From Chloroflexota bacterium (GTDB lineage Bacteria; Chloroflexota; Anaerolineae; Promineifilales; Promineifilaceae), in assembly GCA_003696605.1 (NCBI GenBank), contig RFGV01000013.1, positions 1 to 64,000 of the forward strand: a DNA stretch of 64,000 bases, read 5' to 3'. The notes beneath the pieces were generated by a model that made no database searches, was not told where the DNA came from, and saw nothing but the letters and a program-made list of their open reading frames with translations. The position numbers and the translations under genes are program-made. This document shows positions 3,581 to 29,060 of the stretch, piece after piece. Numbering within the stretch: position 1 is the first letter of the stretch; each line of letters begins with the position of its first letter.

Positions 3581-5868
3581 ACCATCACTCCAACTGCATA
3601 GCTTTGGGCTGCGATTGCGTTTTGGGTTAATCGGAACAGCGTATCAAAATGATGTGCCAGGCCAGGGCGTGGCAGCACGACATGGAGTAAACGAAAGAAA
3701 GTAGCTGCCCGGTAGAAGGCAAACCGTTGCCAAAAACCGTCATCTGGTGGTCGAAGACGGCCGTACACATCCAGAAATACCGATGCCTCATGAGTGAGCG
3801 CATCCGCATGACATAACCGATACAGCCCCAGAAAATGCAAATGAGCCACAAAATTGGCCACATCAATTGCAGGATCACCGGGCGCAGCCAGATCAAAGTC
3901 AATGAGGGTGACACGGCCATGGTGAAACAACAGTTGGCTGTAGTAAAAGTCCCGATGTACCAGAGAAGGCGACAGCAAGGGCGGCAGGTTTGCTGCCCAC
4001 CGTTGCAACGCATCATGAACCAGAAGAATTTCGGCCGCTTTCTCTGGTTTCATAGCACACAAATTCTGGGCAAATCGAGTCAGGTTAGCCTGTTCGTCGC
4101 TGAGCAGGTAGGGTTTGCGTAAAAATTGTTTGGGGCCATGAGTAAATTGAGCAGACAGATTTACAGAATGGAATCGGGCTAATGCCTGAGCTGCGCGAAT
4201 AATGTGCGTGTGCAGGCCAGTAGTCAGGACCATTTCGTTCAGGGTTTGGCCTGGTGTCCACGCCTGTACCATCATGCGCATTTCTGGTATGTAAGCCAGT
4301 GGTTGTGGCACATGAATTTGGTCTTCAGTCTCTGGGCCAAATCCATTTTCCCAAAGCCATTGTTGCAGGTGTAAAAGGCGTCGCCCTCTTTCATCACGAA
4401 ACAGCTTGCCGACAACACGGTGTCGGGTTGGTAGCAGGTGTTTTTTGGTGTGGCCACGTAACTCATAGAGAAGCACACAACGACGGTTTGGCTTGTATTT
4501 TAAAACCTGAATGTTGGTAATGGCATCAAGCTTTTCAGGGCCTTTTTTCCAAAAGGCAGGCAGGCGACGGGCGAGTAGGGGAAGTGCCAGATCGGCGCGA
4601 GTGGCACGGTAGAGGCGCTGGCGCAGTTTCTGGTCGAGGATAGGTAACTGGATGGTGTTGGGCATGGGGCGGGAAGGGGGGGTAGAAGAAACGGCCGTTG
4701 TCCACTCCAATATTCGTCGCACATTCCGATCCCATGTGTATTGATGTAACACAATCGAAGCCGCCTGCCAGGCAATCTGTCGGGCATGGGCAGGATTGTC
4801 CACCAACATACAAATTCGCTCAGCCAACACCCGATCATTACCCGGTGGGTACAAATAGCCCGTAATACCATTCTGAATAACACGTGATGGTTGTCCGACA
4901 TCGGCCGCTACCACTGGCACACCACATGCCATATACTCAAATAACTTAAGCGGCGAAAAATAAAAATTAACCATTGCCCGATGTGTGGAGACAGCCACAT
5001 CCATAGCCGCAATATACTCTGGAATTTCCTCATGGGGCACAGGTCCTGTCAACGTAGTCTGTTCACTTAATCCCAATTCCTTCAAGCGAGCCGGTAATTC
5101 CGGCGGCATCTGCCCGACCAGCAACAGATGAAAGCGTGAATCAACCGCCTTGAGTTGCACCATTGCTCTCAACAAAGTGTCCAGATCGTGCCATGGGCGC
5201 GGACGGCCTACAAAACCGACAATCAAATGTCCGTTAAGACCATAACGAGCATGAATGCGCCCGCCGCGTACAGCCGGATGGAACAAAATGGGATCAACAC
5301 CATTTGGTAACACATGCACTTTTTCGGCAGCCACGTTACGACTCGTAACATATGCGCGCAGTTGTTCAGAAACAACAGAGATGACCCTGGCTGTTTGGAA
5401 CTGAGCGGCTTCGATGCGGGCGGCAGTGGTGTAGTCGGTCAGGTAACGGTAACGGGATGCTTCTTCAATAAGGGGAGCGTTTACTTCCAGAATCAATGGC
5501 AGACCGGTTATCTGGCTAAGACGTGCGCCAGCGTCGCTCCAGAGGGAGTATCGCTCATAGATGAAATCGTAGTGATTGTTGGCTATTTCTTCTTGCAGGC
5601 TGTTGACTAGGTGGTCGGTATAAAGGAGAGATTGTCGTGCCCGTGCTTCTTCCTCTGATTTGAAGTGGCCAGGCAGGTCTGGCAGGGGAATGGTTTGTAT
5701 GCGGGCTTTGGGGGTTAGACCATTTTCTGGGCCAGGGCGTGGCGTAACAATGGTGACTGTGTGTCCAGCCCGGGCAAAGGCGTTTGTCAGAGCACGAACA
5801 TGAACGGCCGCTCCTTTGTGACCTCGAATGGGGATGCCTCGATCGGCGCAAATGTATAGGATGTTCAT
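3577..5868 (-). CDS. GT4 glycosyltransferase fused to an APH/choline-kinase-like domain
   Basis: The 763-residue protein has two enzymes in one chain. Residues 1 to about 390 are a GT-B family 4 transferase, with an N-terminal Rossmann start, a V-G-F-V-G-R-P donor-domain entry and F-E-Y-M-A-C-G-V-P-V-V. Residues about 420-763 are a kinase-like fold, with the family motif K-Y-K-P-N-R-R-C, the catalytic loop H-R-D-F-Y-Y-S-Q and the metal-binding I-D-F-D. The fusion suggests that sugar transfer and phosphorylation of the same glycan or lipid acceptor are linked; that is inference. The gene overlaps both neighbours by 4 bases. The family name aminoglycoside phosphotransferase should not be read as antibiotic resistance here. 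Confidence 0.88.
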   Translation of the reverse strand: MNILYICADRGIPIRGHKGAAVHVRALTNAFARAGHTVTIVTPRPGPENGLTPKARIQTIPLPDLPGHFKSEEEARARQSLLYTDHLVNSLQEEIANNHYDFIYERYSLWSDAGARLSQITGLPLILEVNAPLIEEASRYRYLTDYTTAARIEAAQFQTARVISVVSEQLRAYVTSRNVAAEKVHVLPNGVDPILFHPAVRGGRIHARYGLNGHLIVGFVGRPRPWHDLDTLLRAMVQLKAVDSRFHLLLVGQMPPELPARLKELGLSEQTTLTGPVPHEEIPEYIAAMDVAVSTHRAMVNFYFSPLKLFEYMACGVPVVAADVGQPSRVIQNGITGYLYPPGNDRVLAERICMLVDNPAHARQIAWQAASIVLHQYTWDRNVRRILEWTTAVSSTPPSRPMPNTIQLPILDQKLRQRLYRATRADLALPLLARRLPAFWKKGPEKLDAITNIQVLKYKPNRRCVLLYELRGHTKKHLLPTRHRVVGKLFRDERGRRLLHLQQWLWENGFGPETEDQIHVPQPLAYIPEMRMMVQAWTPGQTLNEMVLTTGLHTHIIRAAQALARFHSVNLSAQFTHGPKQFLRKPYLLSDEQANLTRFAQNLCAMKPEKAAEILLVHDALQRWAANLPPLLSPSLVHRDFYYSQLLFHHGRVTLIDFDLAAPGDPAIDVANFVAHLHFLGLYRLCHADALTHEASVFLDVYGRLRPPDDGFWQRFAFYRAATFFRLLHVVLPRPGLAHHFDTLFRLTQNAIAAQSYAVGVMV

Positions 5869-7184
5869 ATGGCTTGCATGACCTCCTCGATAGTTGGGGT
5901 GGGAAGAGTGGGCAAGGGCGGGATGGGGGATGAGGGGAGCATGGTGGCGGGAGAAACGGCCGTTTTCATATCCGCTTCTTCTGCCAACCAGGCGTGCAAC
6001 ATCGCAACATTTTGCCGCACATCAAAACAACGCATCACTTTCGCCCGGGCAGCAACCCCCATATGCGCCCGTTGCGCCGGGTGTTGAAGCAATAATGCCA
6101 GCCCATTGGCCAATGCTGCGGCATCGTTAGGCGGCACAATCAAACCATTCACATTCTGATCAATAATTTCCGGAATCCCAACCATATTGGTTGAAATCAC
6201 TGGCAATCCACACGCCATCGCTTCCAGCAACACCGTTGGCAAACCATCCTGATTACCATCCCTTGCCCGAACACACGGCAACGCAAAAATCGTCGCTTTT
6301 CGATAAGCCTGGCGCACCTTGTCTTGCGGACGCGGCCCCAGCAATTTCACCTGCTTCCCAAGCCCCAGAGCGTGGATTTGTGCCCGTAGTTCATTTTCCA
6401 AAGGCCCTTTACCGATAATGTGACACATAAAATTGATATCCCATTGTTTGAGATACCCACAAGCTGCGAGCAACACATCGAATCCTTTCTTTTCCACCAG
6501 GCGCCCTACACTCAGTATTAAATTAGGCTTGCGAGATGATTCATTGGTGGGAGGGCGAAAACGACGCACATCAATGCCATTGTAAAGGCGACGAATATCT
6601 CCTGATTCATCCCCCATTAAGTTTTGCAGGTAAGTGCGGTTAAAATCGCTCACAGTGACGACAAAGCGGGCGTGTCTAATTTTGCGTTGCAGTGAGCCGG
6701 GTTGTACGGTGCTGTGGAAGATGTCTTTGGCATGTGCGGTAAAGCTGTATGGTATGCCAATCAGATTGTTGACATAATAAGCCACTGTGGTGGCACTGGT
6801 GGCAAAATGGGCATGTATGGCATCAACGGGATGACGTAACAGGTGGGCGGCAATGATACCAGCCTGCAAGAAGCGTTTTTGGGCATAGACATGACCACGA
6901 GAGAGAGCAAATGCCCGTGTCTGGCGGTAGGTGTCGGGAAAAAGGTCGTGCAGGAAGCGGTGGGCAGAAAGGACGCGGTCTGGCTCCATTTGTGGATATT
7001 GGGGGATGTAGATGACGTTGGCTTTGACGCGGGCGAGGCTGGCATGAAAACGGCCGTCGTCTGGCTTGCGCAGGGAGTAAATTCGCACATCAACCCCCCG
7101 ACGCTCCAATTCCAAAATCTCATTTACAATGAACGTCTCAGAAAAACGGGGATACATTTTGAGAATATAGGCAATGCGTGTCAT
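5865..7184 (-). CDS. GT4 glycosyltransferase, WcaL-like
   Basis: The 439-residue protein begins M-T-R-I-A-Y-I-L-K-M-Y-P-R-F-S-E-T-F, the hallmark of colanic-acid WcaL-like family 4 transferases. The donor domain carries L-S-V-G-R-L-V-E-K-K-G-F-D near residue 220 and L-L-E-A-M-A-C-G-L-P-V-I-S near 340. It should move a sugar from a nucleotide-sugar donor onto a growing cell-surface glycan. It overlaps the MurG-like gene upstream and the GT4-kinase fusion downstream by ATGA. Three other GT4 domains are in the same locus. Donor and acceptor cannot be assigned. Confidence 0.9.
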   Translation of the reverse strand: MTRIAYILKMYPRFSETFIVNEILELERRGVDVRIYSLRKPDDGRFHASLARVKANVIYIPQYPQMEPDRVLSAHRFLHDLFPDTYRQTRAFALSRGHVYAQKRFLQAGIIAAHLLRHPVDAIHAHFATSATTVAYYVNNLIGIPYSFTAHAKDIFHSTVQPGSLQRKIRHARFVVTVSDFNRTYLQNLMGDESGDIRRLYNGIDVRRFRPPTNESSRKPNLILSVGRLVEKKGFDVLLAACGYLKQWDINFMCHIIGKGPLENELRAQIHALGLGKQVKLLGPRPQDKVRQAYRKATIFALPCVRARDGNQDGLPTVLLEAMACGLPVISTNMVGIPEIIDQNVNGLIVPPNDAAALANGLALLLQHPAQRAHMGVAARAKVMRCFDVRQNVAMLHAWLAEEADMKTAVSPATMLPSSPIPPLPTLPTPTIEEVMQAI

Positions 7185-8440
7185 ATCATCATCCCCTTTT
7201 TTTGCAGCAACATGGTCAAGGATGTATCCAGTTCCCGCGTTGGGCGACCATGTAGCACCAGCTCTGGATTAGTCAGTAGTTCAGCAATTGCATAACTTAC
7301 ATGCGCCAGGCCATTTATATCTAGCGTTTGTTCAGGGGGAGGAAGTAACAGATTTCTGGAAATCGTTTCCCAGAGAAGATGGGGCGTGAGGGCATCTGGC
7401 AAAATCATTTGCACCATTTTTCGCTTGGCGAGTTGTTCTGCCCGAATTTTTTGTTCAGCACGTGTATGCATGCGGGGGATGAGGATAGCCCGCTTCTTTA
7501 GAGAGAGGATTTCGCACACCGTGTTGTAGCCTGCCATGCTGATGACCAGATCAGCGGCATTCATGTAACTCAACAGGTCGGGTGTAAACTCCATTAGAGT
7601 AACGCCTTCAGGGGGGCATAGATTTTGTAGTTGATACCGTTTTTGGTGTGACATCAGGGGGCCAGTAACTAACAAGCTGTGAAAATTGGTGTTTTGGGAA
7701 TGGGTAGAGAGCATTTCTAGGTAATTTTTGAGGATTTCAAAGCCATCACCGCCTCCGCCAACAGTGACTAAGATAAGGGGTTTGTAGCCAATGCCTAACT
7801 CACGACGCACGGCTTCAGACGGCCGTATCTCCTGCTCGTAACGAATATATCCGCAAGGTACAAGTTTTACAGCCGCATTGACAGACATTTCGTACGCATA
7901 AACCGGGTCAAACACATTTCGTTGGCCATAGTACAAAATACGGTCATAGACTGAGTCCAGCAGCTGATATGTCCCCCGTGTATGCCATTCCAGTTGCGTT
8001 GCAGCCGGACTATCTTCAATATCACGCATGCCCAGCAGCAACAATGTGTCTGGCAGCCATGTTTTGATGTATCGTAACGAAGGCAAAAGTTCACCATACA
8101 CACCATCGGCGACTTTGTCCACCAGAACAATATCTGGTTTGAAATTCTGGACAGCTTGCAAAATAATTTGTTCTCGCCAGGAAATGGTTCGTTTGAGAGA
8201 AAGGGGAAGGGCACGAGCCTTGTATTGCCCATTGGAACGTTTGCTTAGGGCGGGCAGTTTTATAATGTCCAGTCGTGGTGGTAAGGAAAACGCACCGGCG
8301 ACCATAGACCCGGTTATCAGGAGCTGGTAGACATTGGGAATGTCTTGTGCCAGCCGACGTGCGATAGCCAGACTTCGTCGTAAGTGTCCAAGCCCATAGG
8401 TGTCATGGGAGTATAAAAGAATTCTTGGTTTTGGTTTCAT
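7181..8440 (-). CDS. MurG-like (GT28-type) glycosyltransferase
   Basis: The start at 8440 is preferred because GAGAGG lies about 9 bases upstream; the open frame extends further to 8485 without a ribosome site. The 419-residue protein opens with L-L-Y-S-H-D-T-Y-G-L-G-H-L-R-R, the acceptor-side nucleotide loop. A donor-side V-T-V-G-G-G-G-D-G and the motif S-M-A-G-Y-N-T-V-C-E follow. These are features of MurG-like undecaprenyl- or lipid-linked sugar transferases. It is closely related to 21899-23191 and to the N-terminal half of 11896-13887. It is the first gene of module A, behind an ECF-type promoter at 8558-8586. Confidence 0.88.
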   Translation of the reverse strand: MKPKPRILLYSHDTYGLGHLRRSLAIARRLAQDIPNVYQLLITGSMVAGAFSLPPRLDIIKLPALSKRSNGQYKARALPLSLKRTISWREQIILQAVQNFKPDIVLVDKVADGVYGELLPSLRYIKTWLPDTLLLLGMRDIEDSPAATQLEWHTRGTYQLLDSVYDRILYYGQRNVFDPVYAYEMSVNAAVKLVPCGYIRYEQEIRPSEAVRRELGIGYKPLILVTVGGGGDGFEILKNYLEMLSTHSQNTNFHSLLVTGPLMSHQKRYQLQNLCPPEGVTLMEFTPDLLSYMNAADLVISMAGYNTVCEILSLKKRAILIPRMHTRAEQKIRAEQLAKRKMVQMILPDALTPHLLWETISRNLLLPPPEQTLDINGLAHVSYAIAELLTNPELVLHGRPTRELDTSLTMLLQKKGMMI

Positions 8441-8463
8441 GAAAATTAGCCTCTCTAACAATA

Positions 8464-8492
8464 CAAATGGCGCAAAACCTTTCAAAAATACA
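8464..8492 (-). promoter_or_regulatory. Shared intergenic motif TGTATTTTT-N14-CATTTG, copy 1
   Basis: On the minus strand a TGTATTTTT box is followed after 14 bases by CATTTG, just upstream of the MurG-like gene and downstream of the ECF-type promoter. Similar pairs are at 11824-11852, 23268-23297 and 28458-28486. No known factor is recognised, and it may be an operator or a second promoter. Confidence 0.4.
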
Positions 8493-19308: not shown

Positions 19309-20715
19309 TTATTGGCTGGTGGGGATGGTGGGCAGGTGTTGGCGAAGTTGCGCCCAGATGGCAGTGGTGGAAACGGCCGTTTTCCTCTGTTCCATCTCCC
19401 ACGTCAGGCACAGGTCAAACAAAGACTTTAACCGTACTGTCGTTTGCCGCACATCAAACATCTGGCAAATTTTCTGGCGAGCATTTTCTCCCAGTTTTGC
19501 CGCTTGTTCAGGATGCGTCAGCAAGTAGCGGATGCTGTTAGCCAATGCCTGAGCATCTTCAGGTGGGACAAGCAATCCATTCTGGCCATCATCCACCAGT
19601 TCTGGAATGCCAGAAACTGTGGTGGAAATGACCGGAATTCCGACGGCCATTGCTTCCGCCAGCACGTTGGGAATGCCATCCCGGTCGCCGTTTTCTACGA
19701 CACGGCAAGGTAGAACAAAGAGCGTGCAACGGCCGTAAATTTCCCGCAACTCCTGTTGTGTAACTGCCCGATGAATATGAACCACATCTGCCAGCCCCAA
19801 TTCTTGAATGCGTTGCTGCACAATGGGCGAATCTTCCCCTTCTTCACCGACAATATGGCATGCAAACGAGATGCCCGCCTGGCGGAGCAAATGACAGGCT
19901 TCGATGAGGTAGGGGAAACCCTTTTTGCGGACGAAACGACCAACGGCCAGAATGATGGGTGGTGAGGCAGACGGCCGTTTTTGGGGAACAAACATCTCTG
20001 TATCCAACCCATGATAAACGGTATAGACAGGTGCACCATCGGGACAAAGCCGTTCCAGATGCTGACGGTTATAGTCTGTGCAGGTGGCAACGAACTGAGC
20101 CTGTCGGATTTTTACCTGGAGCAAGTCGCCCGGATTGAGGCGACGCAGGTAAATATCTTTGGCGTGGGCAGTAAAGCTATAAGGGATACCGGAAAGGAGA
20201 CTGGTAAACATGGTGATAGTTGTTGAGCCGTGGCAAAAATGGCCGTGCAGATGACGAATACGGCCGTCTGCAATGACCTGGCGGGCAATATAACCGGCTT
20301 GCAAAAACTCTTTGATAATCACTTTCTTAAAACGGCCAAATCGTCGTCGCCGGTACTTCACGGTACGATATATCGCCTCGGCTAATGTGCGCACATAAGC
20401 AAGCGGGCGTTGCCGTAGCAGTGCCCAGTGTGCCCGCCAATAATGGGGCAAATTAATCCACATCCACCGACTAAACGAAACATCACTGATTGAGGTGGTC
20501 AGAGGCAGGTAGGTTACATTGGCTTGAATACGACTGACAACGGCATGCTGCCTGGTTTCCTGTGAACGTTTGGCCGAAAAAATGTGTAATTTCACCCCCA
20601 TTTGTTCCAGCCGGTAGATTTCATTCAGGATAAAAGTTTCTGAAATGCGGGGATAGCCTTTCATGATGTAGGCTACATAAGGGGTGTTTGCTGGTTGGTG
20701 AGTTTGTTTGCTCAT
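19309..20715 (-). CDS. GT4 glycosyltransferase, WcaL-like
   Basis: The 468-residue protein has near its start Y-I-M-K-G-Y-P-R-I-S-E-T-F-I-L-N-E, the WcaL-type opening shared with 5865-7184. The donor domain shows V-G-R-F-V-R-K-K-G-F-P near residue 250 and L-A-E-A-M-A-V-G-I-P-V-I-S near 370. An AGGTGA ribosome site precedes the ATG. A short basic stretch near residue 120 (K-Y-R-R-R-R-F-G-R-F-K-K) could bind membrane phospholipid. It should add one sugar of the cluster glycan; specificity is unknown. Confidence 0.9.
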   Translation of the reverse strand: MSKQTHQPANTPYVAYIMKGYPRISETFILNEIYRLEQMGVKLHIFSAKRSQETRQHAVVSRIQANVTYLPLTTSISDVSFSRWMWINLPHYWRAHWALLRQRPLAYVRTLAEAIYRTVKYRRRRFGRFKKVIIKEFLQAGYIARQVIADGRIRHLHGHFCHGSTTITMFTSLLSGIPYSFTAHAKDIYLRRLNPGDLLQVKIRQAQFVATCTDYNRQHLERLCPDGAPVYTVYHGLDTEMFVPQKRPSASPPIILAVGRFVRKKGFPYLIEACHLLRQAGISFACHIVGEEGEDSPIVQQRIQELGLADVVHIHRAVTQQELREIYGRCTLFVLPCRVVENGDRDGIPNVLAEAMAVGIPVISTTVSGIPELVDDGQNGLLVPPEDAQALANSIRYLLTHPEQAAKLGENARQKICQMFDVRQTTVRLKSLFDLCLTWEMEQRKTAVSTTAIWAQLRQHLPTIPTSQ

Positions 20716-20740
20716 TTTATTTCACCTGTACAATGACAAC

Positions 20741-21898
20741 TTACACGGTTTTGCGTGGGAGTGGCTTTGGAAAAACGGCCGTATCTTCAACACGTGGCGC
20801 ATAGGCAGTTCGTAAATGTTCACAGAAGCGATCAGTGCATTGCTTCAATGAGAACTGTTGCTCTACATACCAACGGCCGTAAGTCCCCATGCGTATCCAG
20901 GCATTTGGTTGTGTGGCTAAATTATTCAACTGGTTTGCCAATGCTTCAGGCACCCCTGATGGGACAAGATAGCCGGTTTTGTTGTGAATAACGGCGCTGG
21001 GAATTGCTCCCACCCGACTGGCAACTACGGGGCGACCACACGCCATTGCTTCTAACACGACATTTGGTAGCCCATCCCTGTCACCAGTGCTATCTACCAC
21101 CGACGGGACAACAACGATATGGGCAGCGGCGTAGAAATCGGGTAGGTCTGCATGGGTTTTGCTGCCACATAATGTGACTTGCCTGGATAGTCCCAGGGAG
21201 TGAATGAGGTTGGTCAGATATTCCCGTTGTGGCCCTTCGCCGACGATCCGGAGGTGAAAAGAGTGAGAGAGTCGGGAAACGGCCGTTAGCAGTACATCGA
21301 ACCCCTTTTTTTCTACCAGCCGACCAACAGCAAGCAATTGTAAAGGGTGGACAGGAGGAAAAGGCTGGGGCAAAAAACGGCTTGTATCAACACCATGTGG
21401 CAACAGGGAAACGGCCGTATTACTACCCGCCAACTCTTCTGCCACATCTCTATTGCAGGCCACCACACATTGGGCTGCCCGCGCCCGACGCTGCAGCTCC
21501 TGGGTACTAATTTTGCGAGCATCTCGCGCGTGTACACTGAACCCAAACGGTACAGCAAGCATCTCGGCTGCCAATTCAGCCACCTGAGCAGGCAGATGGG
21601 CAAAATAGGCATGAATACCGGTTACAGGGATATGTGCCAGCGCCTGTGCCAAAAAACGAGCCTGTTCATATGGTGTTCCCGCAGGTAAATAGCGCACATG
21701 AGGCAACAGATGGCGTGCATCCGGGTGTGGGGGGGTGTTGTCACCCGGCTTGGTGGCAAAAATGGCTGCCAGCAAACCAGATGCTTGCAGAGCGAGCGCC
21801 TCATTCAGTGCAAAGGTTTCCGAACGACGGGGGAACCCGCTTAAAATCAGAACCAGACGCGTGGAGGAAGGTGTGACAGCGAGCATCATGAAGTCCAT
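20741..21898 (-). CDS. GT4 glycosyltransferase
   Basis: The 385-residue protein opens with L-V-L-I-L-S-G-F-P-R-R-S-E-T-F-A-L-N-E, another WcaL-like start. It carries A-V-G-R-L-V-E-K-K-G-F-D and L-E-A-M-A-C-G-R-P-V-V-A-S. The ATG at 21898 directly follows the TAA of the MurG-like gene, so translation is coupled. Shorter than its two relatives here, it lacks their extra mid-domain insert. Confidence 0.9.
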   Translation of the reverse strand: MDFMMLAVTPSSTRLVLILSGFPRRSETFALNEALALQASGLLAAIFATKPGDNTPPHPDARHLLPHVRYLPAGTPYEQARFLAQALAHIPVTGIHAYFAHLPAQVAELAAEMLAVPFGFSVHARDARKISTQELQRRARAAQCVVACNRDVAEELAGSNTAVSLLPHGVDTSRFLPQPFPPVHPLQLLAVGRLVEKKGFDVLLTAVSRLSHSFHLRIVGEGPQREYLTNLIHSLGLSRQVTLCGSKTHADLPDFYAAAHIVVVPSVVDSTGDRDGLPNVVLEAMACGRPVVASRVGAIPSAVIHNKTGYLVPSGVPEALANQLNNLATQPNAWIRMGTYGRWYVEQQFSLKQCTDRFCEHLRTAYAPRVEDTAVFPKPLPRKTV

Positions 21899-23191
21899 TT
21901 AATCGGCACAAACGGCCGTTTGATTGTGTAGCAAAGACTGAACACGAGATTGGATGCGCGGAAGGCCACCCAGATCAAGGGAAGAAAACGGCCGTTGTGA
22001 GGCCATCAACCCATGCAACACCTTTTCCATCAACAATTGAGGCGTCAATTCCGACTGTTCCACCAGATCGAAATACCCCAAAGCTGCCAACAACCGTGCC
22101 CGAATCAACTGTTCACGCACCGGCTTTTCACGCGGTACAAGCACGGCCTTCTGCCCAAACGAGAGCAACTCACACACCGTATTGTAGCCCGCCATCGAAA
22201 CCACAAGATCAGCTTCTGCGTACCGTTGCGTCAAATCCGGCTCAAAATCACGAAATGTCACATCCGAAAGATGCCCAAAGCGGCGCAAAATATGACTTCT
22301 TCGCTCATCTGGCATTTGCGGGCCAAACATGACCAGTGTGCGCAATACAACCCGGCGTGGCAGGTCCATCAACCCTTCCAGATAAGCCTCGATAATGTCG
22401 CCACCGTCTCCCCCGCCACCTGTCGTCACCAGCACGCGAGATGGCCCATCCTGACGCGGGACTATCGTTGTCGGGCGTTGCAAATAGCCACAATAGAAAG
22501 TCTTTTGTTGCACACTTTGCGGGAAACCATATTCAACGGCCGTATCAAACACCTCCCGCATGCCGTAGATCCATACCTCATCATAATACTTCTCAATAGT
22601 TTCAAACGCCTTCGCCTTCTTCAATGCCTGACGAGTACGTACCGGATCATCCAAAATATCCCGAATCCCCACCACCAACTTCGTCTTCCGCTTTTGTCGC
22701 CGAATTGCCCGCAAAGCAGGCAGCAATTCACCATCAATACCAGCCGGCCGCTTGTCCACAATCATCAGGTCAGGGTCAAACCCCAAAATTGATTTTTGCA
22801 AAATCGCCTGTCGTGTCTGGCTGACCTCAGCCGACCACTCCCGCAAAAAACGGGGTTCATACCGATTTGCATCCACACGATCCAGACACGGCAGCTTGAT
22901 GTAATCAATTCCCTCAGGAATACGAAACGCATGAATAACTGGTGAACCGGTCACGATCAGAATGGCTGCGTTGGGGAATTTTTCGATCAATGCCTGTGAA
23001 ATAATCAAGGTGCGGCGGATATTTCCAAGGCCAAATGTATCGTGAGAATAGAGCAAAATTTTTGGATGGGATAAGTCTGGTGTGGGCGCAACACGGTTTT
23101 TTTCTGGCACAAATTGGGGGCGAACTTGTGTCTGAGGTGGATGGAATGGTACAAAGCCCTGTTGGTACATTAGAAGCTGTTGACTGATCAT
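21899..23191 (-). CDS. MurG-like (GT28-type) glycosyltransferase, first gene of module B
   Basis: The ATG at 23191 is preferred because GAGGA lies about 11 bases upstream; the frame runs to 23371 but crosses a probable leader. The 430-residue protein has L-L-Y-S-H-D-T-F-G-L-G-N-I-R-R near residue 45, a V-T-T-G-G-G-G-D-G-G donor loop and S-M-A-G-Y-N-T-V-C-E. It is a clear paralogue of 7181-8440, and each paralogue heads its own module. The substrate is probably a lipid-linked sugar. Confidence 0.88.
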   Translation of the reverse strand: MISQQLLMYQQGFVPFHPPQTQVRPQFVPEKNRVAPTPDLSHPKILLYSHDTFGLGNIRRTLIISQALIEKFPNAAILIVTGSPVIHAFRIPEGIDYIKLPCLDRVDANRYEPRFLREWSAEVSQTRQAILQKSILGFDPDLMIVDKRPAGIDGELLPALRAIRRQKRKTKLVVGIRDILDDPVRTRQALKKAKAFETIEKYYDEVWIYGMREVFDTAVEYGFPQSVQQKTFYCGYLQRPTTIVPRQDGPSRVLVTTGGGGDGGDIIEAYLEGLMDLPRRVVLRTLVMFGPQMPDERRSHILRRFGHLSDVTFRDFEPDLTQRYAEADLVVSMAGYNTVCELLSFGQKAVLVPREKPVREQLIRARLLAALGYFDLVEQSELTPQLLMEKVLHGLMASQRPFSSLDLGGLPRIQSRVQSLLHNQTAVCAD

Positions 23192-23267
23192 GGTGCGTTT
23201 TCCTCTTCCTGTTGTTTCTGTTTCTAAAGTTGGCATCATGCGAGCGACTTTGTGTTTTGTTGTATGA

Positions 23268-23297
23268 CATATGCGCCTTTGCGTAGGTAAAAATACA
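23268..23297 (-). promoter_or_regulatory. Shared intergenic motif TGTATTTTT-N15-CATATG, copy 3
   Basis: The motif lies about 77 bases upstream of the module B MurG-like start and downstream of the subtilisin terminator. The spacer is one base longer than in the other three copies. It is a candidate promoter or operator of module B. Confidence 0.4.
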
Positions 23298-23342
23298 TAT
23301 AGCCGAAAATTTGCTGGAACAAGAGGAAGAAAAAATAGCAAA

Positions 23343-23378
23343 AATGCACCGGCTAATTTAGACCGGTGCATTATCCTC
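23343..23378 (-). terminator. Rho-independent terminator of the subtilisin gene
   Basis: A perfect 10-bp stem (AATGCACCGG with CCGGTGCATT at 23343-23352 and 23363-23372) has a 10-base loop. On the minus strand it is followed by a T-rich tract, about 50 bases after the subtilisin stop. Confidence 0.85.
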
Positions 23379-23423: not shown

Positions 23424-24737
23424 TTATTTGGCGGGTCCTGGTTCGACGCAACTGCCGCTCATGATGCTTCTGTTAGTTGTAGGAATAGGGCCTGTGAGCA
23501 GCAGGTCAATACTGGCCGCGATGTTGGGGAGTCCGGCACCCAGCTTTATGCCAGGGGGATTTATATTTTTCAGGGAGCGGGCAGTGTTGCTCATGAGCAG
23601 GGCAATATCTCGGGCTGTCAGGGTGGGGCCAAGGCTGCGGAGTAAGGCTGCCTGTCCGGAGACAAATGGTGTGGCCATTGAAGTGCCACTCCAGGTGGCG
23701 TATCCGTTAACAGGGAAGGTGCTATATATGCCGTCGCCGGGAGCAGCGAAATCAACCCAGCTACCAAAACTGGCAAAGTCAGCCTTGAGCATGTTGGGAC
23801 CAACGGCCGTTACTGCCAAAGCACAGGAGCCTGCTGCCGGAAATTGTTTGTCGCGCGTGCCTTCATTGCCAGCGGCAGCTACCACGACCACGCCATTTAG
23901 TGTGGCCTCACGAATAACGGCTACAAGCGTCTCTGACTTTTTAGGCATTCCCATACTCAAGTTGATGACATCAGCGCCGTGATCGATGGCATAAAGTACT
24001 GCTTCAGCCACAGTGAACGCATTGCCGCTTCCATCTGGTCCCAATACCCGCACTGGCATAAGTTGTGCTTCGGGTGCAACCAGATGCACAATACCGGCCA
24101 CGTGTGTTCCGTGCCCACCAGCCGAACCGGGGACAAGCTGATTGTTCAAGCCATCGTACACATCGGCAGGGATTGTATCGTTGTCAATGAAGTCGAAACC
24201 GGTATCGGTAATAAATGCGGCTAGAGCAGGGTGATCAAGTTGGATGCCCGTATCGAGGATGGCAATGATAGTGCCTTCCCCTTTGGTAATGGCATGGGCA
24301 GGATTGAGATTGAGTAGGTCGGCTGCGTATTGCTGGAAGTAAGGGGCGTCATCGGGGCCGCCCCAGGCCCAGATGCGGCTTTGGGCGGCTTCGGGAAGTT
24401 CGCCTATAAAATTGAATTCAGCATAAATCAGGCGCAGGTCGAATTCCATTGCTTCGATGATGTCGGATTCGGGCGTGCCGGTAGGGGCCTGGAGCAGATA
24501 GATGCCTAATGAGGGGGCGAGGAGCTGGATGGTTGTGGTGTTGTAGGTTGTGTTGATTTCTTCGATGGTAGCGCCACTGGCTGGGTTGAGTTGAACGATT
24601 ATCTGACCTTCTACGTGGGGCAGGTCTGCTGCGCCAGCGATGGCAAGCGGTGTGAATTGTTTTCCGCTGAAGAGTGTGATTGTGAGTAAAATGAATGCAA
24701 CTGGAATGATGAGACGTCGCAATTTACGGCCGTTCAT
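23424..24737 (-). CDS. Secreted subtilisin-like serine peptidase (S8)
   Basis: The 437-residue protein has a signal peptide (about residues 1-35) and a pro-region (about 40-125) with an I9-like fold suggested by V-E-G-Q-I-I-V-Q-L. The catalytic domain shows the Asp in A-I-L-D-T-G-I-Q, the His in G-G-H-G-T-H-V-A-G and the Ser in G-T-S-M-A-T-P. All triad residues are present. An AGGGAGGAAA ribosome site precedes the ATG. An ECF-type promoter lies 50-78 bases upstream, so it is probably made under a sigma-controlled program. Neighbouring sigma and TPR-CHAT genes suggest it is an output of that switch (inference). Confidence 0.93.
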   Translation of the reverse strand: MNGRKLRRLIIPVAFILLTITLFSGKQFTPLAIAGAADLPHVEGQIIVQLNPASGATIEEINTTYNTTTIQLLAPSLGIYLLQAPTGTPESDIIEAMEFDLRLIYAEFNFIGELPEAAQSRIWAWGGPDDAPYFQQYAADLLNLNPAHAITKGEGTIIAILDTGIQLDHPALAAFITDTGFDFIDNDTIPADVYDGLNNQLVPGSAGGHGTHVAGIVHLVAPEAQLMPVRVLGPDGSGNAFTVAEAVLYAIDHGADVINLSMGMPKKSETLVAVIREATLNGVVVVAAAGNEGTRDKQFPAAGSCALAVTAVGPNMLKADFASFGSWVDFAAPGDGIYSTFPVNGYATWSGTSMATPFVSGQAALLRSLGPTLTARDIALLMSNTARSLKNINPPGIKLGAGLPNIAASIDLLLTGPIPTTNRSIMSGSCVEPGPAK

Positions 24738-24786
24738 GTTGTTTTCCTCCCTTGACTTCAGTCCAGAAAATGCGCACTTTTAATTA

Positions 24787-24815
24787 AAGTCGCAATGAAG
24801 ACCGAAAAGTAACGG
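24787..24815 (-). promoter_or_regulatory. ECF-type promoter copy 3
   Basis: The minus strand reads CCGTTAC, 16 bases beginning TTTT, then CGACTT. It is in the 150-base gap between the TPR-CHAT stop (24888) and the subtilisin ATG (24737), so the subtilisin can be transcribed independently of the genes upstream. Confidence 0.72.
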
Positions 24816-24887
24816 GTTATATACTGATTAATTTTTTAATTGGGTTCAGTGTGGGCTTTGGAGCAAATAAGAAGCCTTTGTTGGGCT

Positions 24888-27761
24888 TCAGGAGTGACCA
24901 ACAAGTATAAAGGGTGCCCAGTAGTAAGGATGGGGATGGGTTTCTTTTAGGGCGATCTGGGCATTTCTTAGGGCGGTGGCGTGATCACATGTTGTTTTTT
25001 GTATTTGTGTGTACAGGTTGGTCATGAGTGTCGCTGTACTTTCGTCTTCTACCAGCCATAAACTGACGATTAGTGTTACTGCGCCGGCACCTAAAAAGGC
25101 ACGGGTCAGACCGAGTATTTCGTCACCGGACAGAATTTGTTTGCGTCCGGATTCGCAGGCGCTGAGAATGACACGTGTGCCTTGAAGATTGAGTTGCATG
25201 ATGTCGCTGGCTGTTAGCCAGCCGTCGTATAGTTTGAGTGCGGAGAACATGGGGTTGCCGCTGCGGAACAGGCCGTGGCAGGCAAGGTGGATGGTGTTGC
25301 AGCAGTGGATGTGTTGCTTGAGGTTGTTTAGGGTGGCGTGTTGGTTAAGGAAGATTTGGGTCTTGGGGTGGCTTTGAGCGACAGCGAGGATTTCGGTGGT
25401 GACGTGGGGGATGGTTGGGTCGGCGATGCCGAAGAGTAGGGCTGTGTTGGATGGGCGTAACGGCCGTTTCTGGCACAGGCTTAAAATGGTGGCACTGGGT
25501 GCGTAAGAGATGATGTATTTCTCCAGGAGGTAATTTTGACCATCAAATAGTGCATGGAAAGGTACCTGGTGAAGGATGTTATGGGGGATAATGGCCAGAG
25601 GTTGAGGATCATCTGGTGTGGCTGCGGGTAACAGGTTTTTCAGGGGGGCAATGAGCTGGGTGTAAAGTTGAGTTAGCAGGCGGCGGCTGGAGAGTTCAAG
25701 CTGATGGAGGTGACGTTTTACGAAGTTGTTACCGATGCGGAAACGTTCCCATTGGTATTGTAGTTGTTGTAAGAGGGGGATGATGTGATTGGTTGTGGTG
25801 ATTTGACGAACACAGTGGAAACGGCCGTTGTGCCGCACAAATGCAATTACTTCATTACCAATGATATGGTAAGCCAACAATGTGGTTGTGGCTGGTAAAT
25901 CGGTCATTGGTTCTGACTGAATGGATTGAAGCGGGGAAGCCGCATAGCCTGTATGTAACAATCGCAAACGCTGGATTTCTTGCTCAATGGCAGTTGCCCG
26001 ATGGTGTAAATCATCAAGCCGCACACGTCTTTCCCCACCCAGACTACTGGCCAGTGCTTCATTGTAAATAGCATTCAAGTCGGCTTGCAGTTGTTGCAGG
26101 CGAGTGGCAATTTCCGAGTCGGTCAATGATTCGGTTTGGTTTTTGGCGATACCAGTCAAGAGGTCTATCAGGGCGCGAGATTTTGCCTGTTCGGCTACTG
26201 AAAAGGCTTGTTCAATACCTTGTTGGTTGTTTTGGCGCAGATAAAGTTGTACCAGGTCTTCATAGGCGGCAATTTTGTCTTGCAGGAATGAGGCACGAAT
26301 TGCTTCCTGAACGAGCGTGCCACGTAGTTTTTCTATTTCGGAAACGGCCGTTGTCAGGGCTTCTTTCGCTGCTTCATCCCGGTTTTGTAACAAATACACG
26401 CGCCCCAGCCGTTGATACACCCGATAGCGCAAATGGGGCAGCCCCAATTCATCGGCCTGAGAACGGGCAATATTCAACATAGATTCAGCCGCCTTGACAT
26501 CAGGCAAGAGCAGGTCTGCCAGCCGCAGGTGGGCGTAAACTTGCTGAATAGGCCAGTCTTTGCCTGCGGCCAGTTCCAGAGCCTGTCGGGCTTTTGTCAA
26601 TGCTTCACCCCGTTGCTCCATTTGCGCCAGCAAGGCCGCCTGTTCGAGTAGCACACTGGAGAGAAGCGCATCGTTACCGGATTGGGTGAAGAGGGAAACG
26701 GCCGTTGCCAGCGCCTCCTCTGCTTCCGGAAAACGCCGCTGCCCCATCAAAGCCATCCCCAGCCCCCACAATGCCCGCGCCTGGTGATGAACCATACCAG
26801 ACTTCCGAAACAAAGACTCTGCTTCCTTATATGAAGCAGCAGCTTCAGGATACAAATTCAGCGCAAGGTATGTATTAGCTGTATCCAGCAAAAGAATATG
26901 CTGCTCTGCCAATGCTTCAATAGGGCCAATTAACCGCCGAGCCTCCTCCAGTGCATCCAGACTTTGGCCATAATTACCCAACAGCATATGTGCATCACCA
27001 ATATTGATAAGCGCCTGAGCATGGAGTAATGTCATTTCCGCTGCTGCAAAAATTTCGGCCGCTTCCTCAAAAGCAGTCAATGCTTCCGTTACACGCCCCA
27101 GATAAGAGAGAAGCACCCCACGATTATTTTTAATGTGCCCGATATGTTCAGTGAGTCCCAATTTTTGAAACCGGATTTCTGCCTGTTCATATGCTGCCAA
27201 AGCGTGTTCATACCTGCCCATAAGCTCATGGCACAGGCCGCTGTTCTGATAGGCCATGGCAGCCAGCATGACAGATTCAGGCGGCGCCGTATCCATGTCC
27301 AGGTGCCCTTGTTCTGCCAGCGTGTCCAAAATGGTTTGTCCTGCGGCCAGAGCTTCCTGATATTGACCGGATTCACCCAGTACGTGCATTAACCCGATGT
27401 TGGTGCGGAGTGCTTCTTGTTGCAGGTTGAGTGATTGAAATTCAGCGCGGGCAGACTCAATTAGTTGGCGAGCCTGCTCAAAATCACCGTTGATAGCATG
27501 GGTTTGGGCCTGTAAGTAGTTGGCACGAGGCTTGATGGCCGGTGCGTTGGCCTGTTGGGCTATGTTTGCCAGCAGGCTGGTAAGCTGTCGTGCCTGGCCG
27601 GGATCACTACGAATGAGTTCGCTGGCATATTGAAGTAGTTGTGTGAGTCCGTCTTCGTGGAATAAATTGGCCGTTTGTAACAGGCGAATTTGTTGGGCCA
27701 GGGTGTTGGCCTGGATAAGCGTTTGTACCAAATCGGAGGAGATGTTGGGTTGGGTGCTCAT
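24888..27761 (-). CDS. TPR-CHAT caspase-like protease
   Basis: The 957-residue protein has about 12 or more TPR-like helical repeats (residues 60-560), a helical linker, and a C-terminal CHAT domain (about 640-957). The catalytic dyad of the family is present: His near 829 in H-L-A-C-H-G and Cys near 869 in I-L-S-A-C-E-S-G. The domain closes with the typical P-Y-Y-W-A-P-F-I-L-V-G. CHAT proteins are caspase/separase-fold proteases, and in the type III-E CRISPR Craspase a TPR-CHAT protease releases a sigma factor by cutting its inhibitor. Here it follows a sigma factor and an anti-sigma-like gene with 17 bases to the latter. Substrate and trigger are unknown. Confidence 0.9.
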   Translation of the reverse strand: MSTQPNISSDLVQTLIQANTLAQQIRLLQTANLFHEDGLTQLLQYASELIRSDPGQARQLTSLLANIAQQANAPAIKPRANYLQAQTHAINGDFEQARQLIESARAEFQSLNLQQEALRTNIGLMHVLGESGQYQEALAAGQTILDTLAEQGHLDMDTAPPESVMLAAMAYQNSGLCHELMGRYEHALAAYEQAEIRFQKLGLTEHIGHIKNNRGVLLSYLGRVTEALTAFEEAAEIFAAAEMTLLHAQALINIGDAHMLLGNYGQSLDALEEARRLIGPIEALAEQHILLLDTANTYLALNLYPEAAASYKEAESLFRKSGMVHHQARALWGLGMALMGQRRFPEAEEALATAVSLFTQSGNDALLSSVLLEQAALLAQMEQRGEALTKARQALELAAGKDWPIQQVYAHLRLADLLLPDVKAAESMLNIARSQADELGLPHLRYRVYQRLGRVYLLQNRDEAAKEALTTAVSEIEKLRGTLVQEAIRASFLQDKIAAYEDLVQLYLRQNNQQGIEQAFSVAEQAKSRALIDLLTGIAKNQTESLTDSEIATRLQQLQADLNAIYNEALASSLGGERRVRLDDLHHRATAIEQEIQRLRLLHTGYAASPLQSIQSEPMTDLPATTTLLAYHIIGNEVIAFVRHNGRFHCVRQITTTNHIIPLLQQLQYQWERFRIGNNFVKRHLHQLELSSRRLLTQLYTQLIAPLKNLLPAATPDDPQPLAIIPHNILHQVPFHALFDGQNYLLEKYIISYAPSATILSLCQKRPLRPSNTALLFGIADPTIPHVTTEILAVAQSHPKTQIFLNQHATLNNLKQHIHCCNTIHLACHGLFRSGNPMFSALKLYDGWLTASDIMQLNLQGTRVILSACESGRKQILSGDEILGLTRAFLGAGAVTLIVSLWLVEDESTATLMTNLYTQIQKTTCDHATALRNAQIALKETHPHPYYWAPFILVGHS

Positions 27762-27778
27762 GGTCGTTTGTAAGGGTG

Positions 27779-28408
27779 TTAGGGGCCAATTTCAAGGGAT
27801 GAAATGACAATCTCGGCTTCCTGGCCGCTGAAGATTAGTTTATAGATGCCGGGCGGGATGGAGGTGAAGGTGAATTCACCCAGTTGGTCGGTGGCAGTAA
27901 GGGCGATTTCTTGCTCGTTTTGGAGGATTTGGACGGCGTAGGTGGGGGGAAGTTGGTCGGAGTGGGGGAGTAGTTGGCCGTGTAGTTGGTAGGTGGATTT
28001 TTCGGGGGTGTGTATCATGTGGAGGATAATGTCGGCCTGGTCGGTTGTGTACACGAGTTGTCGGGGAGCGGTTTGGATGTCAACTGCACGGGTGGTAGAA
28101 ACGGCCGTTTGTGTCCAACTGTCAAAGGAGAGGGTGGCAATGAGACGTTGCCAGAGATTCGGCCGTTTTTCTTGTGCGTATGCAGCAAAACGTTGTTGTA
28201 ATACCTCGCGCACGCGCCTGGGTGGTGTTTCCAGCACCACATTCTCACTCACTTGCAGAAAATGACGTAGCCACTCGACAGTTGCTTGAGTTTCAGCGTC
28301 TGCATTTGAGAGCCAGGCAGCAATCATTGCTGCTTCCTGCTCATTCAATTTACCCTCTAGCCAATCTACCAGTTGGGCAAACTCAGGTGGTTTATTTAAA
28401 TTGGTCAT
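27779..28408 (-). CDS. Putative anti-sigma-like protein with a C-terminal transthyretin-like domain
   Basis: The 209-residue protein has a helical N-terminus (about 1-80) with L-V-D-W-L-E-G-K-L-N-E-Q-E-A, which resembles the opening of zinc-type anti-sigma domains, but the His/Cys zinc ligands are absent. The C-terminal third is beta-rich and ends with G-E-F-T-F-T-S-I-P-P-G-I-Y, typical of carboxypeptidase-regulatory or transthyretin-like folds. No membrane segment is visible, so it is probably cytosolic. It lies between the ECF sigma and the TPR-CHAT protease, so it could inhibit the sigma and be the protease substrate. That role is inferred. Confidence 0.65.
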   Translation of the reverse strand: MTNLNKPPEFAQLVDWLEGKLNEQEAAMIAAWLSNADAETQATVEWLRHFLQVSENVVLETPPRRVREVLQQRFAAYAQEKRPNLWQRLIATLSFDSWTQTAVSTTRAVDIQTAPRQLVYTTDQADIILHMIHTPEKSTYQLHGQLLPHSDQLPPTYAVQILQNEQEIALTATDQLGEFTFTSIPPGIYKLIFSGQEAEIVISSLEIGP

Positions 28409-28457
28409 AATAAATGTTTATCCCTGTATTTTAAATGTCTGGCATTCCTGTACACAA

Positions 28458-28486
28458 CAAATGCGATAAATGTTCCTAAAAATACA
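28458..28486 (-). promoter_or_regulatory. Shared intergenic motif TGTATTTTT-N14-CATTTG, copy 4
   Basis: This copy lies in the 100-base gap between the ECF sigma gene and the anti-sigma-like gene. It might give the downstream genes a promoter or operator of their own. Confidence 0.4.
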
Positions 28487-28508
28487 CACCAATCAAATTG
28501 ATCGAAAA

Positions 28509-29060
28509 TTACGTTATATCTTGCAGAATATGCTTTAATTTTTCCAGACATCGGGCGCGTGTGGGGCCAATGCTGCCTACGCGCATGTTGAATTGCCGGG
28601 CAATTTCTGTGTAGGCAGGCTTTTCAGCGCTGAAATACAATGCCAGCAAAAGCTGGCGGCACTTCTCATCAAGTTGGGTTAGTCCCTGATGTACCCATTG
28701 AATTTGTTCAATTTGATTCGTAAAGCGATTTTGAGATTCATCAGCAAGAAGCGGGTTTTCGGAGATATCGAAAGCATGGCCGATTTGTTCCCGTTTTTTT
28801 TGCTCCAATAGCCGCCAGGTGTGGCGACGGGCTACGGTTGCCAGCCAGGCAGCCAGATGGCTATCTTCACGGAGCGAGTCGAGGCTTTGCATAAGGATGG
28901 TGAAGGTTAACTGGGCAATATCCGCAGCGTCCTCACGGGACAGGCCATAATTGAGCGGAATGGAGAAGACCAGCCGTTCGTATTTGTCCAGGAGTGTGTT
29001 CCAGGCGTGTATGTCACCTTCTCGGCAGGCGGTGATTAGGGCATCGTCAGAATCAAACAT
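28509..29060 (-). CDS. ECF-type RNA polymerase sigma factor
   Basis: The 183-residue protein has a sigma region 2 (about residues 10-85, with D-A-A-D-I-A-Q-L-T-F and A-W-L-A-T-V-A-R-R-H) and a region 4 helix-turn-helix (about 125-180, with Y-T-E-I-A-R-Q-F-N-M-R-V-G-S-I-G). No other domain is present. It precedes the anti-sigma-like gene and TPR-CHAT gene, a layout that suggests a controlled sigma. A sigma-A-like promoter at 29155-29182 and a palindrome at 29107-29120 lie in its leader. It is one of two candidates for reading the CCGTTAC promoter family. Confidence 0.92.
   Translation of the reverse strand: MFDSDDALITACREGDIHAWNTLLDKYERLVFSIPLNYGLSREDAADIAQLTFTILMQSLDSLREDSHLAAWLATVARRHTWRLLEQKKREQIGHAFDISENPLLADESQNRFTNQIEQIQWVHQGLTQLDEKCRQLLLALYFSAEKPAYTEIARQFNMRVGSIGPTRARCLEKLKHILQDIT

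Follow-up and report, generated by a model that had tools for sequence, protein, structure and literature searches.

Can a caspase-like protease switch a sigma factor on where no CRISPR effector is present? The question is raised by four adjacent genes in a 64,000-nucleotide (nt) stretch of a Chloroflexota genome (family Promineifilaceae, assembly GCA_003696605.1, contig RFGV01000013.1, positions 1 to 64,000), which we call the window. The genes all lie on the minus strand. In order, they encode an extracytoplasmic function (ECF) sigma factor of 183 residues (28509-29060), a 209-residue protein that we call gene 2 (27779-28408), a TPR-CHAT protease of 957 residues (24888-27761) and an S8 subtilase with a prodomain (23424-24737). 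A reading made from the letters alone (the sequence-only reading) had proposed this co-oriented set, and Pfam and NCBIfam searches show it to be real. As that reading had also stated, there is no sign of a CRISPR effector: the window has no CRISPR-like repeat array and no cas gene among its annotated open reading frames (ORFs), and the rest of the genome was checked for one cas family only. PADLOC made no defence assignment for the sigma factor, gene 2 or the TPR-CHAT protein and gave only generic subtilase/IetS matches for the S8 protein. We consider it rather probable that the four genes form a CRISPR-free cytoplasmic protease-switched sigma pathway. The computed evidence consists of the conserved linkage, the anti-sigma homology of gene 2, the intact catalytic residues, an invariant arginine that is lost together with CHAT, and a conserved promoter-like element.

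The linkage extends well beyond the host. In 52 genomes of the host's family, the close relatives of the window sigma form a distinct group (E < 1e-23), well apart from other ECF sigma factors. Twenty of their neighbourhoods were fetched, and 14 of these have sigma, gene 2, CHAT and S8 in that order; at L039 and L041 the contig ends within the S8 gene, and at L042 the CHAT gene is divided between two ORFs. Scanning GTDB genomes yielded 80 loci, some on the same contigs as those of the family set, so that the two sets are not independent. The query was a closer alignment of 11 sigma sequences; an earlier alignment of 22 was too diverse. The loci belong to Chloroflexota, Actinomycetota, Planctomycetota, Armatimonadota, Pseudomonadota (Burkholderiales) and Krumholzibacteriota, and the family occurs in named isolates of Rubrivivax, Piscinibacter, Modestobacter and Rubrobacter. 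Co-occurrence across genomes had been set beforehand as a test by which the sequence-only reading could fail. The linkage is conserved: a same-strand CHAT gene follows 67 of the 79 related sigma genes with 1.5 kb or more of downstream sequence, and 47 of the 55 with 6 kb or more have both CHAT and S8. As a control, none of 19 other ECF loci of the same family has CHAT or S8 in the 8-16 kb stretches that were read. The four proteins also diverge together (54 loci, overall r = 0.68-0.86, Mantel p = 0.001). The protein-distance correlations, to which the species history common to all loci contributes, are 0.86 for sigma and CHAT, 0.86 for gene 2 and CHAT, 0.81 for sigma and gene 2 and 0.77 for CHAT and S8. 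A chance association is excluded by the co-divergence of the genes and by the presence of the four-gene order in at least six phyla.

The sigma factor matches Pfam Sigma70_r2 (3.2e-9) and the NCBIfam model sigma70-ECF (TIGR02937, 5.3e-21), aligns with its family, and carries the region-4 signature ...VGSIGPTRARCL.... The CHAT domain (24897-25682, minus strand) matches Pfam PF12770 at 1.3e-62, with 212 bits against a gathering score of 24. Its His-Cys dyad is intact, as claimed from the letters (His829, codon 25275-25277; Cys869, codon 25155-25157), and is retained in 54 of 54 relatives. A Foldseek search with the model of a homologue (L072) ranked chain 8eey_B first (8e-18), which is Csx29 in the active Cas7-11-Csx29-Csx30 complex; human separase and further Craspase chains came next. 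The window protein itself scores 89.6 bits against the Csx29 equivalog NF041237, which is below the NCBIfam cut-off of 300. Every 19-residue stretch of the sigma factor, gene 2 and CHAT has a mean hydropathy of 1.73 or less, while the N-terminus of the S8 protein is hydrophobic. Hydropathy thus suggests that the first three proteins are probably cytoplasmic and that the S8 protein is exported.

What, then, is gene 2? By homology, it is a soluble class I anti-sigma factor, and it is predicted to inhibit the sigma factor. It consists of a four-helix anti-sigma domain (about residues 1-85) and a C-terminal β-sandwich that is CarboxypepD_reg-like. Searches with the single protein gave only sub-threshold matches, to CarboxypepD_reg (Pfam 1.2e-4, below the cut-off) and to anti-sigma factors. 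A profile of the N-terminal part, built from 47 sequences, was searched against all PDB chains. The first seven matches are seven anti-sigma chains, namely DdvA (2.7e-5 and 1.4e-4), RslA (4.8e-5), RsiW (0.004), ChrR (0.009, two chains) and RskA (0.12). The NCBIfam anti-sigma model is matched by 36 of the 47 members (best 9.8e-11). At the 19 control ECF loci, the gene-2 profile found the protein that follows the sigma factor in eight cases at E < 1e-3 and in 12 at E < 0.01, always through the N-terminus. All the proteins found have a hydrophobic membrane-type segment and the four that were tested match zf-HC2, thus suggesting that they are ordinary anti-sigma factors. The window protein has neither a membrane segment nor zinc ligands (Hx3Cx2C is absent), which agrees with the zinc-less anti-sigma-like protein described earlier. 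We rejected its assignment as a zinc anti-sigma factor, though some relatives (L052, L087, L092 and L117) retain the motif Hx3-5Cx2C. About 44% of class I anti-sigma factors have no zinc motif (PMC7406223).

Two AlphaFold2 models of homologues show the same architecture. Model 1 joins the sigma factor and gene 2 of L060 in one read-through chain (predicted local distance difference test, pLDDT, 86.2; predicted template modelling score, pTM, 0.67), and model 2 joins gene 2 and CHAT of L072 in the same manner (pLDDT 89.8, pTM 0.81). In model 1, gene 2 is made up of four helices, a β pair, a low-confidence stretch and the β-sandwich. The helices span residues 223-231, 236-247, 251-269 and 277-295 of the chain, and model 2 has the same set. 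The sigma part of model 1 superposes with both domains on SigW of the SigW-RsiW complex (5wur_A, 117 residues, 3.0 Å). The corresponding values for sigma factors bound to RNA polymerase are about 23-30 Å. This is indirect evidence, which suggests an inhibitor-bound arrangement of the modeled sigma factor. Sigma relatives without CHAT (L048, L050, L051 and L085) are followed by a membrane-spanning anti-sigma factor of the zinc-finger type, with a FecR domain in L050 and L051. It seems from these neighbourhoods that the sigma group alternates between membrane-type and CHAT control.

If CHAT acts on gene 2, a likely target is a predicted flexible loop (28070-28111, minus strand), a candidate cleavage site that contains Arg107 (codon 28088-28090) and whose limits in the window protein were transferred by alignment from the L072 model. 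All 78 distinct gene-2 sequences that have a CHAT partner carry this arginine. Apart from it, the start Met is the only fully conserved residue in these sequences. The context is usually G-x-R (71/77), and the diverged CHAT-linked proteins of L207 and L208 have LRG at this position. The equivalent residue of L072, R109, lies in a segment of model 2 (102-115) with pLDDT below 50; in model 1 the arginine falls within the low-confidence stretch. Model 2 has an isolated β-bridge at residue 108, beside Arg109, which might reflect substrate docking and was not used as evidence. Complete conservation of a residue in a disordered stretch suggests that a partner recognizes it, and not that folding depends on it. 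The segment also disappears together with the protease. Two genomes of one genus (G013 and G014) have the sigma factor and the anti-sigma domain, and no related CHAT gene was found in their assemblies (E <= 1e-40; assemblies about 94% complete). Gene 2 of G013 has a deletion of the Arg segment, and that of G014 stops after the anti-sigma domain. The segment is likewise absent from the membrane-type anti-sigma factors of the four CHAT-less loci mentioned above. Arginine at P1 is usual for separase and metacaspases, and on this ground we hypothesize that the cut falls after Arg107. We put it no more firmly because Csx29, which cuts Csx30 in a flexible loop between residues 427 and 429, needs no essential substrate residue (PMC10028731).

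The gap between sigma and gene 2 contains a bipartite promoter-like element, TGTATTTTT, followed after a spacer of about 14-17 nt by CWYYTRT. The window copy (TGTATTTTT...CATTTGT, 28457-28486, minus strand) compares with 0.00 expected in shuffles of the window. Among 41 distinct sigma/gene-2 gaps, GTATTT is present in 29 (1.7 expected from dinucleotide shuffles) and the two-block form in 18 (0.16 expected). By the same kind of shuffle, GTATTT before S8 genes is enriched (8/19, 0.7 expected). Before the sigma genes it occurs once in 91 cases (2.1 expected), and the bipartite form is upstream of none of the 91. The element therefore probably drives gene 2, CHAT and S8 but not the sigma gene. From its position, 28457-28486 is likely the target promoter of the adjoining sigma factor, to which the latter would bind. 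The sequence-only reading had placed an ECF-type promoter at the subtilisin gene. A conserved element does exist, but it is in the sigma/gene-2 gap; a promoter directly before the window S8 gene was rejected, as the element is absent there, though it precedes S8 genes elsewhere.

Only two strict matches were found in the 4.9 Mb host genome, and both are in the window. The second copy (8463-8492, minus strand) lies 22 nt before the ATG at 8440 of an operon of three glycosyltransferases (3577-8440, minus strand; Pfam: GT28-C at 7181-8440, GT4 at 5865-7184, GT4 + APH at 3577-5868). This copy makes the operon a candidate for control by the sigma factor. The putative regulon thus includes both the subtilase and glycosyltransferase genes, which fits the earlier claim of a regulon with subtilisin and glycan genes. 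Looser matches elsewhere in the host genome were dropped; they are mostly inside or away from genes. In G007, a genome with an unlinked sigma factor (at C66) similar to the published group ECF54, each of the three strict matches immediately precedes an S8 subtilase gene. One lies between CHAT and S8 of a sigma-less gene 2-CHAT-S8 locus, where a variant element precedes gene 2. Two complete four-gene operons, each with a sigma factor of its own, are present in this genome as well, and any of these sigma factors is a candidate user of the sites. The one strict match in G017 is before an S8 gene. Taken together, the linkage, the anti-sigma identity, the dyad and the putative regulon of the sequence-only reading have held up, and its placement of the promoter has not.

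The mechanism that we propose is the following. The N-terminal four-helix domain of gene 2 would hold the ECF sigma factor inactive. The TPR region of the TPR-CHAT protein would sense an intracellular signal, and its His-Cys protease would cut gene 2 in the loop between the anti-sigma domain and the β-sandwich; the most likely position is beside the invariant Arg107. Inactivation or degradation of the anti-sigma fragment would then release the sigma factor. The freed sigma factor would transcribe from TGTATTTTT-N~14-CWYYTRT promoters. Its targets would be gene 2-CHAT-S8, giving feedback on inhibitor and protease plus a secreted subtilase, and the glycosyltransferase operon. Newly made gene 2 would close the loop. 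In this chain we infer the sigma binding, the cleavage and its position, the release, the promoter function and the trigger.

Several observations weigh against this mechanism. Window gene 2 has T105 where 71 of 77 relatives have Gly. The coupling of the arginine to CHAT has an exception in L090, where gene 2 keeps the residue although no CHAT gene is near. As Csx30 has no essential residue, a requirement for Arg would be without direct precedent in Craspase. Betaproteobacterial gene-2 proteins are without most of the anti-sigma domain and retain the region of its last helix alone, the helix that is reported to bind sigma region 2 in class I anti-sigma domains (PMC7406223). The two models are tandem read-throughs of two neighbouring genes and come from homologues rather than from the window, whereas the natural proteins are separate. 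Finally, the genome-wide strict motif is only modestly above the reversed control across the family, and the argument therefore rests on the position of the element and not on its number.

The conservation of the loop could also be explained with gene 2 left uncut. The TPR-CHAT protein might be a signal-dependent partner or scaffold that binds the Arg loop and the β-sandwich and removes gene 2 intact from the sigma factor, or it might cut some other substrate. A docking site would give the same co-evolution and the same Arg conservation as a cut site, and Csx30 binds Csx29 whether or not the protease is activated (PMC10028731). However, pure binding has no need of the catalytic His and Cys, which all 54 CHATs keep, and the invariant Arg is in a predicted disordered loop, the kind of place where scissile sites are found. 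We regard this explanation as unlikely. The one already in the literature, proposed for ECF54 from gene context (PMC8999054), does without an anti-sigma factor: the proteases would degrade the sigma factor itself, and gene 2 would be a carboxypeptidase-type protein. No peptidase domain was found in gene 2, however, and its carboxypeptidase likeness is limited to the accessory CarboxypepD_reg-like fold. At the N-terminus gene 2 has a class I anti-sigma domain, and an S8 protein with a secretion-type N-terminus should not meet a cytoplasmic sigma factor. Degradation of the sigma factor is thus very improbable.

It could still be argued that gene 2 itself senses the signal, through a ligand on the β-sandwich, with CHAT and S8 as mere outputs of the regulon. 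The element before gene 2-CHAT-S8 does make CHAT and S8 probable targets. However, if CHAT were a mere output, its loss should leave the inhibitor unaffected; in G013 and G014 the loss of CHAT accompanies that of the Arg loop, with the anti-sigma domain kept. We give this explanation hardly any credence and prefer cleavage of gene 2 by CHAT.

How does the cleavage switch relate to known systems? The gene neighbourhood of ECF54, with carboxypeptidase-like, subtilase and CHAT proteins, has been published and was read there as lacking an anti-sigma factor (PMC8999054, citing Huang 2015 and Casas-Pastor 2021). The neighbourhood of the window is the same. The reference protein of ECF54 is SFT86700.1 from Geodermatophilus amargosae (PMC8999054). 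A sigma factor from Modestobacter, which is likewise a member of the Geodermatophilaceae, shares 53% identity with the window sigma and stands in the same four-gene context, which makes it very probable that the window system is ECF54 or something close. The ECF54 "carboxypeptidase" is presumably gene 2, whose β-sandwich resembles a regulatory-like fold and not an enzyme. Going by its sequence, gene 2 as an anti-sigma factor probably corrects the description of ECF54 rather than excluding membership. The review (PMC8999054) gives no anti-sigma factor, promoter element, Arg site or regulon, whereas the window system has candidates for each. The linkage itself was already known; new here are the anti-sigma identity of gene 2, the invariant Arg and the promoter-like element.

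The Craspase or CASP system (Csx29-Csx30-CASP-sigma, type III-E) likewise has a TPR-CHAT protease, a protein inhibitor and an ECF sigma factor. Experiments support that its CHAT protease cuts the inhibitor in a flexible loop and that the sigma factor is freed (PMC10028731). Craspase has Cas7-11/gRAMP, CRISPR RNA and target RNA, none of which is present at the window locus, and the output genes differ. Homology of gene 2 to Csx30 was rejected, as Csx30 was not among its matches in the PDB. In the CalpL-CalpT-CalpS system (type III CRISPR), a protease cuts an anti-sigma factor and frees an ECF sigma factor (PMC11417357). CalpL, however, is a Lon protease activated by cyclic tetra-adenylate (cA4) via a SAVED domain, and the system has no CHAT and no S8. 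DdvA, of which structures have been solved (PDB 8rot, 8rw5 and 8rlz), has an anti-sigma domain and a C-terminal CHAT in one chain. No PDB chain matches gene 2 better than the former, and the latter gives a match too. DdvA is transmembrane and fused, whereas window gene 2 is soluble and separate from CHAT. Anti-sigma factors of the RsiW, RseA and RsrA type have the class I domain in common with gene 2, and regulated proteolysis frees the sigma factor in the cases of RsiW and RseA. These two are membrane proteins handled by site-1 and site-2 proteases, whereas the window pairs a soluble inhibitor with a linked caspase-like protease. By analogy, the four-gene set is most likely a variant of the Craspase-type switch that is widespread and works without CRISPR.

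The S8 protein is a subtilase with an Asp-His-Ser triad (Asp162, His209 and Ser353; Peptidase_S8 1.8e-43) and a Fervidolysin-type prodomain (Fervidolysin_NPro-like, 8e-7). The intact triad, the prodomain and the hydrophobic N-terminus accord with the secreted subtilisin first proposed. The Asp and His are retained in every relative in which they align; the position of the Ser is covered in 44, and all of these retain it. Directly 3' of the S8 gene, after a gap of 52 nt, lies a second glycosyltransferase trio (19309-23371, minus strand; Pfam), paralogous to that at 3577-8440 and 34-41% identical to it. It is possible that this trio is a co-transcribed extension of the S8 operon. At the contig edge (5-328) there is a short-period tandem repeat with 12/18-nt spacing, which is not CRISPR-like.

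Variants of the locus were also seen. At L045:8334-9768, two family sigma genes stand back to back and divergent, one with a four-gene operon and the other before an esterase-like gene. In L135 (Krumholzibacteriota), a CHAT-S8 pair is on the opposite strand between two sigma and gene-2 pairs, and one of the two gene-2 proteins has a zinc-like motif. Genome G007 encodes at least eight CHAT proteins related to the family, several of them beside gene-2 homologues, a large paralogous expansion. The host genome has four more, lower-scoring CHAT-domain genes (C555:4263-5144, C685:18065-18835, C455:5898-6752 and C315:47847-48266); close to the one on C555, the opposite strand has a weak match to sigma. 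Gene-2 homologues also occur at two more diverged CHAT loci, L207:586-6960 (G027:C27) and L208:128-5517 (G007:C98). L207 has a highly diverged sigma-like protein upstream (E 4.5e-4) and an S8-like protein downstream. These two loci suggest a second, older class of the same module. Apparent gene 2-CHAT fusions (1069-1252 residues) in L096, L099, L102, L125 and L127 were rejected as out-of-frame upstream extensions in GC-rich DNA.

To our knowledge, most bacterial CHAT proteases have no known substrate. The present family supplies a candidate substrate that is linked to the protease and co-evolves with it, and in which one residue is singled out. It also supplies a candidate promoter and, in sigma-dependent transcription, an output that can be read. 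We tentatively propose, as one joint claim, a cross-phylum CRISPR-independent family in which a separase/Csx29-like TPR-CHAT protease would cut a soluble anti-sigma factor by an invariant Arg and induce secreted subtilases and surface-glycan genes via a dedicated promoter, and of which type III-E Craspase would be a CRISPR-recruited relative, the switch being the older. If the mechanism is true, the gene-neighbourhood note on ECF54 would become a mechanism and the statement that it has no anti-sigma factor would be corrected. It would also suggest that the protease-sigma logic of Craspase is not specific to CRISPR.

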